Below, one piece after another: positions 42,937 through 55,144 of a stretch of 64,000 nucleotides of DNA (its first letter is position 1; each line of letters opens with the position of its first letter). The translations under genes were made by a program, and so were the position numbers. The notes beneath the pieces were generated by a model. That model was given only the letters and a program-made list of their open reading frames with translations. It was not told where the DNA came from and searched no databases. The DNA lies in the NCBI GenBank assembly GCA_003290165.1, contig QNQO01007596.1, forward strand, positions 124,001-188,000. Reading direction: 5' to 3'. This DNA comes from Berberis thunbergii (lineage: Eukaryota; Streptophyta; Magnoliopsida; Ranunculales; Berberidaceae).

Positions 42937-43365
42937 CACTACACCAAAACCCCCATTAGCAACGGTTCTGTACCGTGGGCGTAACCCATTGCCACAGCTA
43001 AGAGCCGTTGGCTACAGAGGCGTCGCGAAATTCTTTGTAACGGCTAAAAACCGTTGCTAAATGTTTAGCAACGGTTTTATGCTTGAATGGGGGTGATGAT
43101 TTTGATCATTTAGCCACGGTTTTAAACCGTTGCAAGAAGAATAGCAACGGTTTTTAGCCGTGGCAAAAATAGCCACGGTTTTAAGCCGTGACAAGGTGTA
43201 GATATTAGCCACGGTTTTAAACCGTGGCTAACAAGGTAGCAACGGTTTTTAGCCGTGGCTAACCCTGGCCACGGTTTTAAGCCGTGGCTAAACAGTGAGA
43301 AATAGCAACGGTTTTTAGCCGTAGCAATAGTTAGCCACGGTTTAAAACCGTGGCAAATTTTTTTT
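42937..43365. repeat. Left terminal and subterminal repeats of the CACTA element
   Basis: About a dozen copies of GCAACGGTTTT-AGCCGTGGC-like palindromes alternate in both orientations (for example CCACGGTTTTAAACCGTTGC near 43115). They are followed by a poly-T run and GCTATCAAATGAC, which recurs at 62239 in another CACTA element. Confidence 0.88.
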
Positions 43366-43640
43366 TTTTTTTTTTTTTAATATTTTTTTTTAATTTTTTT
43401 GCTATCAAATGACTAAAAGCATAAGCATCCAAATTTTAGTAAAACCAATACCTAATCAAATAGACAATGGGATTATTGAATTGATGGGTTTTAATTCCTC
43501 AATAACTAAGAAAAAACATTGTTATATATACAACCTAAAAAATGGGTCTATACAAGAATGCCAATCCAATATACATATAACAGTTTCAAGACTCCACAAC
43601 TAAAAAATGCCAGTTATGCAGAACTCGATTGAACATAACA

Positions 43641-43847
43641 AAATTACAGGGTGTCACAAGTAACCTTAAGCTTGATGTTCTCCTTCTCTAGGGTTGCAAT
43701 CACTCCTTTTAAAATTTCAGCACTTTCAACTTCTTGCTCTTCATCATTCCTTCTAGTCAACTCTAATTGCAGTCGCTTTATTTCTAATATTTTTTCATTC
43801 AATTCATTTTGTAAAGTTGTCATCTCTGCCACAGACTTTTGCCCCTA
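43641..43847 (-). pseudogene. Probable last exon of the CACTA element's own gene
   Basis: After a splice-acceptor-like TCTTTAG at about 43848, the minus strand reads GQKSVAEMTTLQNELNEKIL, then a charged heptad-rich stretch (ENIKLKV) ending in a stop. Position next to the subterminal repeats and the coiled-coil C-terminus fit the TNPA/Ptta-type protein of plant CACTA elements. That identity is inferred from location and style only. Confidence 0.45.
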
Positions 43848-43849
43848 AA

Positions 43850-44866
43850 GACATAAAAATCATAGAAATTAGAAAGAATTCTACCGAAAGGCACATGGTA
43901 AACACGAAGATGGTCAATAATCAACAGACACAAAGATAAACACACATAATTATCATAAATAACTATTCATTAATATTATCCATTCACCAAGGGTACATGG
44001 GGAACCATGCAAGTGAGGGGGAAGGTAAGAGAGAGGGGACATATAGCCTCTTGTTTTAAGGTAATGAACATCAAATTTCCTATTGTTTAGTTCTTGGGTT
44101 TTATATTTCCAGATTGAACTACCAAACAGTTAAGTCAACTAGACAAACACAATCAAACCTTTGTATCAAAGACTCTTCACTTCCACAAGAAATATATAAA
44201 CAATAACAACCAAAATATAAGCTTTGTAGCCAGGACAAGTACTCCACACTTAAGGGGAAAAAATATGAATGTTATGACTTATGAATATATGGCAATATAG
44301 AAAATGATCAATTTAAAAATGACTAACAAAATGAAGTTTATAACTGGGGTGAAAATATTGCACCCTCAATTTGGTTGGTAATTTGGTTAACATGTCTGAC
44401 ATGCCATACGGCCCATACCCAAGTTCGTCACTGACATGTATTTGCCAGTGTTACATAGAAGAATTACACCAAAGCGTATTTTGATCAAGATTCATAAGGG
44501 TTCCCTTTCAATAAGTCAATCTTTCTACTAATTGACTGGGTATAAATGTTCCTAGGACAGATATGCATAAAACATCAGGTAGCCAATGATCAAGGGTCAT
44601 TTAGTGAAACATAAAAACATGGTAATAGACTGTAATCAACAAAAAAAAAACCCTGGAAAGGTGCCAGCGTGGACTACATATCAGAAAAATTGCATTATTC
44701 TAAGAGCAAACAAAATGGATGAAATGTATGTATCGGCATCATTTGAACATTGACACACGGCAATTGTATAGCCATATCTGTGTTTGTTTGTTTAACAGGC
44801 CAATGCAAGTAAATTAAGTATTTGGATATCAGAAAAAGAACATGTAATTCAAAGACGTTATTACCT
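43850..44866. other. AT-rich intron-like DNA inside the CACTA element
   Basis: No exon-like stretch recognised. Lies between the presumed last exon and the kinase fragment. Confidence 0.4.
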
Positions 44867-45480
44867 TTGCCATTGACGGACGCATTTCCGGGCTTCTTCT
44901 AACACATAAGTATGCTGTTTTAGTCATATTGTACACTTCATAAGTGTCATAAGATTCTCCAATACGAGGATCAATGAGCTCATGCAAGGCAAGCTTCTCA
45001 ATAAGTTGTTCCGCCTAAAGTTATTGCAAAACATAATATTAAGCCAGAACACATCTAATAGCAGTAACTGCAAGCTTCTTTTAGACAGAATACTCAAGTT
45101 CACAATACAAATACCAGGGCGGTAAAGAATAACATACCCACTGGAGTAGAAATTGCTGCTGTCCTACTCTTTCATTGATGACTTTCCGTCCAGATATCAG
45201 TTGGAGCAGAACAATGCCAAATGAATAAACATCTGTCCGCACAGACACAAAACCACTCTCAGCATATTCTGGTGCGAGGTACCTGCACAGAACAAGGTTT
45301 GTGAATATGTTCTTGAGAACAAAAACCTTTGAATTGATTTCTCAAAGGTATGAAAAGTGGCAAATAAATTTCCTATCAGGAAGAAAGATCTTACCCTAAT
45401 GTACCGATTATCCTTGTACTAATAGCTTCTTCTGTCTTCCATTTAGCAAGGCCAAAGTCTCCTAACTGAGAAAGCATTCT
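44867..45480 (-). pseudogene. Captured receptor-like kinase fragment, three exons
   Basis: Exon 1 (about 45480-45395) reads LGDFGLAKW..., with the DFG metal-binding motif, to IIGTLG. Exon 2 (about 45285-45139) reads YLAPEYAESGFVSVRTDVYS then FGIVLLQLISGRK: the APE motif and helix F. Exon 3 (about 45015-44867) reads AEQLIEKLALHELIDPRIGE and CVRRSPEMRPSMAK (the final R of the kinase fold). Splice sites are GT-AG in each case. The ATP-binding lobe and HRD loop are absent, so no kinase activity is possible. The style is PERK-like/receptor-like cytoplasmic kinase. Confidence 0.85.
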
Positions 45481-52865: not shown

Positions 52866-53636
52866 GAAGTGCTCCCTCAACTAATATCAAAATCAGCATT
52901 TGCCATCCTTTGATTTCATGTTTCAGACATTTTACAAATTGGGACACAAAAATATAAGTAGCTAGCAATAGCATCACAGTTTTTCTGTCCATTCTTTAAA
53001 TTTAGCTACCATTAAAACCAAATGTAGGGTTGACAGAACGGCATCAAAAGGAAGGCTAAGCCAACAGCAGATAGAATCAATACAGTGAGAACAATTGTAA
53101 AAACCAATCCAACACCATAGCGGATGTAACCGAGTAAAATTGGAAAAAAAAACAGAATCAAAAGAAACTAATTCTTAGAGTATCCAATTCCTAAGACAGA
53201 AAGGGGCAGAGAATCGGATTTCACATGCTAAACAACTTTACTTTAATGTCCTTCCAATTTTGCAAAATTGCGCAACCAACAACTCAATCTCAACATAAAC
53301 GTTCTGTCAATATATATTCCACATTCAAATGAAGAATACAACATATAGATCACTAACAACTCTAATAAGAATTCAAGTCTCAAGAGCACATGAAGACCAA
53401 ACAAATGAGGCAAGGATCGAATTGGTGTGAAAATGGATCTGAACAAACTCGAATCATCATCAAACATGATATTAGGCATACTTAAACCCCCAAAAAAGTG
53501 AAAACGATTTCAAAGATATCAAATTATCATAACACCAAGACATTGGACAAAACACTTAAACATGCAATTCAATCAACAAACTGTAAGTACAAAACACTTT
53601 GATTGTTTCCAATTATTTGTCCTAAATCTCACCTTG

Positions 53637-54547
53637 TGAACCACCAAGTTCCTGAAGTGCACTAATGAAACGGCGATGCAATTCCGGAGACCAACATCTC
53701 CTTTGCTTCCTCTGGGATTGCTGCGATTGTGGTTGTTGTGGTTGTGCAGGAGTTATCACTCTATCTACTTGCCCTTTTGTCATGAAAATAGATGATTTAC
53801 TCTCCGGGAACAAAGATGATGAATCAGTAAGTGAAGTTGGAGTATTCAGTCCAGGAAGAAGAAGAGAAAGACCAGATACTGATGATTTCTCCTCTTTATC
53901 TTCCTTCTTCTTCTTGTTCACTATAGAGGCCTCAGTGTATCCCTTAAACGGCGCAAATGCCCCTTCCCCACTCCAGTACTTGCATGAAGTGTTTTGATTC
54001 TTAGTCACAGAAACTCGATCTTCTGCAACTCTCTATAATCAAAATAATCAAAACACCATTACAAATCAATCTCTAAAAAATCAAAATTACCCAAAAAAAA
54101 ATATAAAAATCAAACTTCTTTACCTCTTCTATCTGTTTTTTATCACCATTAATTATATTAGAATCAGAACAATAGCCATTTGAACTCCAGAGCTGAGCAG
54201 AACTCATCCAGCTCTTCTTATCTTTATAATCTTTATCAACTTTCTCCCCTCCACCTTCATCAAAATTCCTCTTTAATGGCAAAAACTCTTCAGTAATCGG
54301 CTTAGCTTTCGACAAGATCGAACACTGCCTCGCCTCATCCTTCAATGTCACAATAGCTACAATCCAAGTCAAAAACAAAAGCAAATCCATTAATAAAACC
54401 CACCAAAAAAAAAAAAAAACCCAATCTCTCAAATCAATCAACAATTCCAATTTTTTACGAAAAAACCCAACTTACCATCATTTAACATGAGCATACAGAG
54501 AGGAAGCTCTCGCTTGAACACTTTAATCTTCTTCATCTCTTCCTCTA
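53637..54547 (-). pseudogene. Captured HHO/HRS1 (NIGT1-type GARP) transcription factor fragment
   Basis: Exon 1 (about 54535-54478): LLEEEMKKIKVFKRELPLCM, LMLND. Exon 2 (about 54358-54123): AIVTLKDEARQC, EEFLPLK, SWMSSAQLWSSNG. Exon 3 (about 54015-53637): TSCKYWSGEGAFAPFKGY, then RRCWSPELHRRFISALQELG ending GSQ at a GT donor. These follow the HHO family in order: N-terminal helix, hydrophobic repression region, first helix of the GARP DNA-binding domain. The remaining DNA-binding exons are absent, so a product could not bind DNA normally. The captured piece starts near the right subterminal repeats and may include the parent gene's 5' leader and promoter. Confidence 0.88.
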
Positions 54548-54549
54548 AC

Positions 54550-54914
54550 AATTGTTAGATGCTTCTTCTACTTGTGATTTGGACAGAGAGAGAAAGAAAT
54601 CGACTGGAAAGAAGAAACTGACAATGGAGTTCCAATTTCATGTTCTTCTTCTCAAACTTTCTTCTTCTTCTTCTTCTTCTTCTTCTTCTTCTTCTTCTAT
54701 CGTCCTCTCCTTTTTTCGTCCTTCTTCTTCTCTACTTCGAGAATCAATGACTGTGAAGAGGAAGCGTCCTCTCCTTTTTTCGTCCTTCTTCTCTACTTCG
54801 AGAATCAGTGACTGTGAAGAGGAAGCGTGGAGAGAGCGAGACTATTTTTCCCCAAATTTTTCGCCAAAGCGGGAAACTTCTCCCTCCAAAGCGCGAAAAT
54901 ACATTCGCCAAAAT
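54550..54914 (-). promoter_or_regulatory. Presumed 5' leader/promoter of the captured HHO gene
   Basis: Contains a (CTT)n run (about 54659-54698; GAA repeats on the transcribed strand), typical of plant 5' leaders. A 64-bp tandem duplication follows (54701-54764 and 54765-54828, unit starting CGTCCTCTCC). Lies between exon 1 and the right subterminal repeats. Confidence 0.5.
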
Positions 54915-55144
54915 GTAAATCTGATTGCTACGGTTTTAAACCGTTGGCAATTTTAGCCACGGTTATAAACCGTTGGCAGGTATAGCTACGGTTTAAAACC
55001 GTGGCAACCCGTTTAGTGTAATTTTTTTAGCCACGGTTCTAAACCGTGGGCCATTATAGCCACGGCTAAAAACCGTGGCAAATAAACCAACGGCTTAAAA
55101 CCGTGGCCACCTCCCCGTAGCTAAACAGGCTTTTTGGTGTAGTG
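54915..55144. repeat. Right terminal and subterminal repeats of the CACTA element
   Basis: Six or more copies of GCTACGGTTTTAAACCGTTG-like palindromes, then CAGGCTTTTTGGTGTAGTG at the very end, mirroring the left end. Confidence 0.88.

Follow-up and report, generated by a model that had tools for sequence, protein, structure and literature searches.

How cut-and-paste transposons acquire host genes is debated, and the closest described systems are elements that carry pieces of such genes between their ends; statements about them here refer to the portions of the sources that were compared. For Pack-TYPE and Pack-CACTA elements, fusion of neighbouring elements has been proposed and fused A+B examples have been reported (PMC8903248), and the model of Catoni et al. 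(2019) is taken from the same source and from a review (PMC13317346). Tgm-Express1 of soybean gives spliced chimeric transcripts that start from the promoter of the host gene (PMC1947982), and Tpn1 of morning glory gives chimeric transcripts, with transposase-coding copies being rare (PMC5105172). Here we describe a CACTA element of 12,208 bp at positions 42937–55144 of a 64,000-nucleotide stretch of the Berberis thunbergii genome (the window; positions 124,001 to 188,000 of contig QNQO01007596.1, or C7562, in the 2.24-Gb assembly GCA_003290165.1). It has no recognised transposase, contains pieces of exons from six or more host genes and was probably built stepwise, through capture, replacement of one block by kinase-gene DNA, fusion with a second gene-carrying element and amplification. 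Because a close relative of one donor gene, the states before and after the block swap, both parents of the fusion and the fused form coexist in one genome, the likely order of events can be reconstructed and the joins located to the base.

The element shares with Pack-CACTA and Pack-TYPE elements its CACTA ends, captured host DNA, amplification and the lack of any transposase found (PMC8903248). Two Pack-TYPE examples detailed there, one a PIF and one a Mariner family, form groups averaging 311–535 bp with one or two gene pieces, whereas the present element spans 12 kb and draws on six identified genes; here, unlike there, both parents and the fused form survive, and the point of fusion is resolved to the single base. 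As in Tgm-Express1, fragments of unrelated genes (five in the soybean case) lie in a CACTA element as exons with introns. Tgm-Express1 differs in being a 5.7-kb single insertion in the F3H gene, with no family genealogy described in the portion compared, whereas the window element is known from its DNA alone (PMC1947982). With Tpn1 it has in common conserved CACTA ends, interiors replaced by host genic DNA and 3-bp duplications; the account of Tpn1, as far as compared, mentions neither a genealogy in steps nor fusion junctions nor an orientation bias among captures (PMC5105172). CACTA elements of Chenopodium also enclose host gene fragments, but few and short ones (for example, an 80-bp AP2 piece), together with recognisable transposase-region domains (PMC8978399).

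The ends of the element, CACTACACCAAAA at 42937 and TTTTGGTGTAGTG at 55144, are exact: CACTACACCAAAA, which begins with CACTA, recurs inverted at the right as a perfect terminal inverted repeat of 13 bp. A TGC target-site duplication flanks the element, and a 26-bp palindromic subterminal unit is repeated at both ends, nine times at the left and six at the right (Table 1). When the flanks are joined over a single TGC, the resulting string matches another contig with 0 mismatches (C366:169539-169580), which fits an empty site, perhaps on the other haplotype. The string also occurs at eight more places in the genome at 3 mismatches, so the flanks are repetitive, and the C366 site may alternatively be an uninserted copy of the repetitive flank. 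The preliminary description of this DNA had taken the element for a complete, single CACTA insertion, and this stands on the ends, the duplication, the palindromes and the joined-flank site; its worry that the two ends might belong to different insertions is ruled out by the shared duplication and the joined-flank site.

Across the family, both ends are visible in eight elements, that of the window included, and seven of these have a perfect 3-bp duplication, in six different sequences; C306 shows both ends without one. Six-frame translation of the window element gave no transposase domain in Pfam at E ≤ 0.01. Since a transposase is not required of non-autonomous members, membership of CACTA (En/Spm) stands on the CACTA-type ends, the 3-bp duplication and the subterminal arrays at both ends. 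The structure is not a product of chance, because 24 loci share an internal fusion junction (see below) and six other two-ended copies have 3-bp duplications of their own. Those 24 loci, the separate duplications and the exact joined-flank site also show that the element was mobilised after capture. With host gene DNA inside and no recognised transposase, it is thus a recently amplified Pack-CACTA element, an already known kind.

Six host genes were identified within it: HHO5, RHF2A, PQT3, V-ATPase subunit B, a receptor-like kinase and golgin candidate 4. The V-ATPase piece matches Pfam ATP-synt_ab and V-ATPase B chains in the PDB; the joined kinase exons match the Pfam kinase family (E 2.6e-11) and are nearest to plant receptor-like kinases, in alignments that overrun into the neighbouring piece of the search string. 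The HHO5 piece is 57% identical to a Nelumbo protein (P0001), the RHF2A-type RING ligase piece 80% over 44 residues to Camellia proteins (P0040, P0041) and the PQT3 (RBBP6-like) piece 48% over 89 query positions to a Papaver DWNN protein (P0047). Weakest of the six is the golgin piece, with about 60% over 55 residues to Camellia proteins (E 1.2e-3 to 0.44). These Pfam, PDB and plant protein matches confirm the HHO, PQT3, V-ATPase B and receptor-like kinase exons that the preliminary description had named. It had also counted five or six further exons, one of which proves to be RHF2A; the remaining stretches have no protein match at E ≤ 1, and some may not be exons at all. Its reading of the exon at the downstream end as the last exon of the transposon gene is rejected, the exon being that of golgin candidate 4, and where it saw a captured HHO leader, the capture starts within the coding sequence of exon 1, as judged against P0001. 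The claim that most exons keep their splice signals holds: both the AG acceptor and the GT donor are present in 8 of the 12 scored pieces (HHO2, HHO3, both V-ATPase, three kinase and the golgin piece). HHO1 and PQT3a have the GT donor only and PQT3b the AG acceptor only, the opposite edge in these three being either truncated or placed before the exon ends; scoring of RHF2A was confined to the exon interior.

Five of the six families (V-ATPase B, PQT3, RHF2A, golgin and kinase) have genes on separate contigs, as expected if the captures came from several separate genes. The parts that were not captured lie on C9405, C930, C534 and C3510 for PQT3, on C9290, C890, C759 and C1181 for golgin, on C6386, C161, C6389, C544 and C8300 for RHF2A and on C2334, C685 and C8754 for the kinase; by sequence, these genes belong to the same families and are candidate donors. 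An N-terminal exon of the same kinase family (query 380–458) was found at about 60 places, in several dozen copies, some with one TGA, which suggests a separate high-copy carrier of another kinase-gene piece. V-ATPase B genes occur on C11448, C2845, C1118, C943 and C2199, with a partial one on C1310, and similarity at donor level was seen for this family only: the captured block aligns with the C943 gene through exons and introns at 90–92%, whereas with C11448 and C1118 the exons alone align, at 82–88%. Because its introns align with C943, the captured V-ATPase sequence is genomic DNA, not cDNA. The HHO5 parent was not located, the HHO5 tail having no match among the 89 matches listed. An ordinary contiguous locus, which would have undone the reading of a mosaic, is rejected, the related genes lying on different contigs; none with this gene order turned up in the searches made, and in the fetched copies the order recurs inside CACTA elements.

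Those copies, ten in number, were picked from matches to the left end of the element, which has 3773 candidates in the genome; among the best 40 scored, the top ones are 98–100% identical. A 231-bp V-ATPase stretch has 71 candidates, of which the best 40 were scored, all about 100% identical, and the best 40 of 101 candidates for the HHO5 stretch are element copies at 97–100%. Three forms were observed directly. At the place of the window's kinase DNA, C5585, the left part of which is common to C5008, has V-ATPase sequence that runs on as in the C943 gene. In C306 and C7759, the kinase block is present but is followed by a different right part, so that C5585, C306 and C7759 all join the unfused left part to another right part. 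The window has the kinase block with its present right part. The other parent of the fusion is seen in C1251, where the right part of the window from 52216 on (identity 98.9% in the 568 bp retrieved and 99% in the HHO5 stretch) stands behind TAF6 exons. At the fusion site, ATATTA is followed by GTTGAAAG in the left parent (C5585) and CAAG by TTACTCATCC in the right parent; the fused form has ATATTACTCATCC, with a 3-bp overlap.

Junction sequences were counted across the genome with ≤3 mismatches allowed and zero control hits. The pre-kinase junction, with V-ATPase sequence retained, occurs at 24 loci and the kinase/V-ATPase junction at 35; the kinase block replaced V-ATPase sequence that the 24 others keep. 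The fused junction occurs at 24 loci (23 of them exact) and the right-parent junction at at least 168. A kinase junction lies on the same contig in 20 of the 24 fused loci, and among the 40 scored HHO5 loci, 18 have the fused junction on the same contig and 14 are among the right-parent junctions listed, with 8 assignable to neither group.

The order of these forms is read from V-ATPase sequence that continues as in the gene, from a single diagnostic base and from how far the copies have diverged. The base lies in the kinase/V-ATPase junction: CATCCACC is found in the C943 gene, at all 24 pre-kinase loci and at 12 of the 35 kinase loci, including C306 and C7759, and CATCCCCC at 23 of the 35, including the window. 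The fused junction lies on the same contig in 20 of the 23 CATCCCCC kinase loci versus 0 of the 12 with CATCCACC. Divergence in the core is 0.22–0.49% among seven fused copies, 0.68–0.91% between fused copies and C5585, C306 or C7759, and 0.76–0.81% among the latter three. Base and divergence together fit a single late fusion.

The likely course of events begins with an ancestral element capturing host DNA, after which one internal block was replaced by kinase-gene DNA, patched in perhaps by faulty gap repair following excision. The element was then joined at its end to another element that also carried gene pieces, and the product multiplied. For this, one element would have inserted within or next to another, both facing the same way, and the intervening DNA would have been lost through microhomology end joining; a deletion from the outer element into a nested one would give the fusion as observed. 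Mobility would be supplied by a transposase encoded elsewhere. Nested pairs of this kind exist. C6976 and C7759 each have a second left end in the same orientation within the element, preceded by GAA and TTA, respectively, and the predicted duplication with the interrupted sequence was found at one genome place each, on the contig in question (exact for C6976, with 1 mismatch for C7759), confirming two same-orientation nested insertions. The TAF6 part of C1251 and the element nested in C6976 have sequence in common, and a second left end is also present in C5008.

Several points weigh against this stepwise account. The junction counts may hold both haplotypes of a single locus, which would inflate all of them. 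On the contig concerned, the kinase junction is missing from four of the 24 fused loci and the fused junction from 3 of the 23 kinase loci with the derived base, at least one of these exceptions adjoining a contig end. The unfused forms are equally far from the window (C5585 0.82%, C306 0.84%, C7759 0.77%), and as core divergence does not rank them, the kinase step is ordered solely by the continuity of C5585 with the C943 gene. C943, from which the captured V-ATPase exons differ by 8 silent and 0 amino-acid changes, is for that reason probably not the donor but a close paralogue of it, and the edges of the kinase block were judged from one side, without the exons of the kinase parent. A deletion intermediate leading directly to the fusion was not found, so the nested route is plausible rather than seen, and template switching would give the identical 3-bp overlap. 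The mechanism of Rubin and Levy is reportedly one of gap repair. Abortive gap repair by itself, with template switching between copies and host genes making both the kinase block and the right-end swap and with no nesting or end joining, would account for a kinase block that is internal with element sequence on both sides, as gap filling predicts, and for the short overlaps at the junctions (TTA; a run of A). Work on Chenopodium points to the Rubin and Levy mechanism for CACTA captures (PMC8978399). Yet the swap extends from 52218 through the terminal region to the very end, for which a fusion of two elements is the simpler account, and the expected precursors of such a fusion, same-orientation nested pairs, are present; we therefore regard gap repair as a somewhat unlikely sole cause and prefer fusion of two elements for the right part.

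The captured pieces also share an orientation. All six identified genes of the window element lie on the minus strand, and its three plus frames match no Pfam family at E ≤ 0.01, in agreement with the earlier observation that every recognised exon reads on that strand. In a wider sample of five elements, 13 of 14 host-gene pieces lie on the same strand (two-sided binomial 0.0018), with the qualifications that the sample is non-random, that three pieces are Pfam hits below the cut-off (UBP8-like, DUF167 and expansin) and that pieces of the same element are perhaps not independent. The six-frame search covered the window element, parts of C5008 and C7759 and the right part of C5585, whereas C1251 was judged by eye from its open frames; the second element of C5008 was sampled without its right boundary. 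Excluded from the tally were hAT DUF659 and zf-RVT pieces (mobile-element-like, minus strand) and a LACS-like piece in C7759 (minus strand), which matches AMP-binding_C at E 0.025 only. At 103415–110762, C7759 holds a nested CACTA element of this family, 7.3 kb long, whose cyclin B, V-SNARE and LACS-like pieces all lie on the minus strand. Given the counter-oriented expansin piece, co-orientation is a bias and not a rule. We met no measured orientation bias of CACTA captures in the portions of the literature compared (Tgm-Express1, Pack-TYPE, the review, Chenopodium and morning glory). The splicing of five fragments in Tgm-Express1 suggests that these are mostly co-oriented too (PMC1947982), so co-orientation as such is unlikely to be new; the 13 of 14 in the sample turn a loose impression into something that can be tested genome-wide.

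Comparison of the ten copies and the window showed how the captured exons change. Substitutions affect 42 of 1986 exon sites and 213 of 9516 non-exon sites (Fisher P = 0.80), and in coding sequence 32 amino-acid changes and 1 stop fall on 1543 sites and 9 silent changes on 434 (ratio 1.03). The captured exons therefore drift neutrally among copies, without selection on protein sequence. The 8:0 silent pattern relative to C943 had suggested purifying selection, which the ratio among copies rejects; as the changes among copies are neutral, most of the divergence from C943 probably predates capture. In the copies that contain them, the eight fully bounded exons keep their AG/GT borders except for one GT-to-GC change in C7759, but the number of changes expected is too small for this constancy to be a sign of constraint.

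Such co-orientation invites the idea of a gene in the making, in which a single transcript from the right end is spliced through the captured exons into a product useful to the plant or the element. The six identified pieces on one strand, the borders kept with a single exception and the in-frame passage from kinase exon 3 to the golgin exon would all suit it. Against these stand the equal rates of amino-acid and silent change and the damage in individual copies (a stop in C74; 1-base indels in C306, C6214 and C5585), and we consider it highly improbable; a bias in capture or in tolerance is a more likely source of the shared orientation than a useful fusion protein. Co-orientation could be a by-product of elements being kept in gene introns mostly in one direction, with later captures oriented accordingly, a proposal to which we give an even chance. 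It is in line with the 13 to 1 split by strand in five elements and with the same-orientation local insertion reported for Pack-TYPE elements (PMC8903248), and the plus-strand expansin piece counts against it. A bolder idea, that CACTA elements act as exon-shuffling machines through same-orientation nesting, microhomology fusion and block exchange, with co-oriented elements persisting because silencing would take them for ordinary spliced genes while their proteins go unused, seems to us improbable.

Table 1. Features of the element in window coordinates, and host-gene pieces in related elements
Feature	Position	Strand
Left target-site duplication TGC	42934..42936	
Complete CACTA element, 12,208 bp, 13-bp perfect terminal inverted repeats	42937..55144	
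Left subterminal palindromic array, 9 units of 26 bp	43035..43357	
Golgin candidate 4 exon with both splice sites (AG acceptor, GT donor) intact; stop codon next, in unspliced intron	43665..43844	-
Receptor-like kinase block; C5585 has other sequence there, V-ATPase sequence included	44680..45711	-
Kinase exon 3; if spliced, in frame into golgin exon	44865..45014	-
Kinase exon 2	45138..45282	-
Kinase exon 1	45395..45465	-
V-ATPase subunit B block, exons and introns, 90-92% to C943 gene	45711..46451	-
V-ATPase B exon, second captured	45857..46065	-
V-ATPase B exon, first captured	46285..46396	-
PQT3 (DWNN-domain protein) RING-region exon	50905..51158	-
PQT3 zinc-knuckle exon piece	51375..51444	-
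Fusion junction of left-parent and right-parent elements; TTA common to both	52216..52218	
RHF2A RING ubiquitin ligase exon piece	52764..52870	-
HHO5 exon 3, ending within GARP/Myb domain	53633..54032	-
HHO5 exon 2	54124..54356	-
HHO5 exon 1, 3' part with internal ATG	54476..54536	-
Right subterminal palindromic array, 6 units	54925..55110	
Right target-site duplication TGC	55145..55147	
UBP8-like (below cut-off), Rho GDI	C5008, first element	-
Pectinacetylesterase, DUF167 (below cut-off)	C5008, second element	-
Cyclin B, V-SNARE	C7759, second element	-
TAF6	C1251	-
Expansin C-terminal piece, just below cut-off; sole counter-oriented host piece	C5008, second element (L057 5898-6101)	+

Within the element, the stretches at 46500–46860 and 49690–49920 are apparently G+C-rich, the second with CAG-type repeats; their source was not identified. 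A 19-bp tandem duplication at 48025–48063 marks the place where C5585 has about 100 bp extra, including an open frame absent from the window. Elsewhere in the window, positions 8084–8189 on the minus strand match the plant small nucleolar RNA snoR71 (Rfam, E 1.1e-5), and tandem arrays occupy 57215–57755 (269-bp units) and 59835–60464 (137-bp units).

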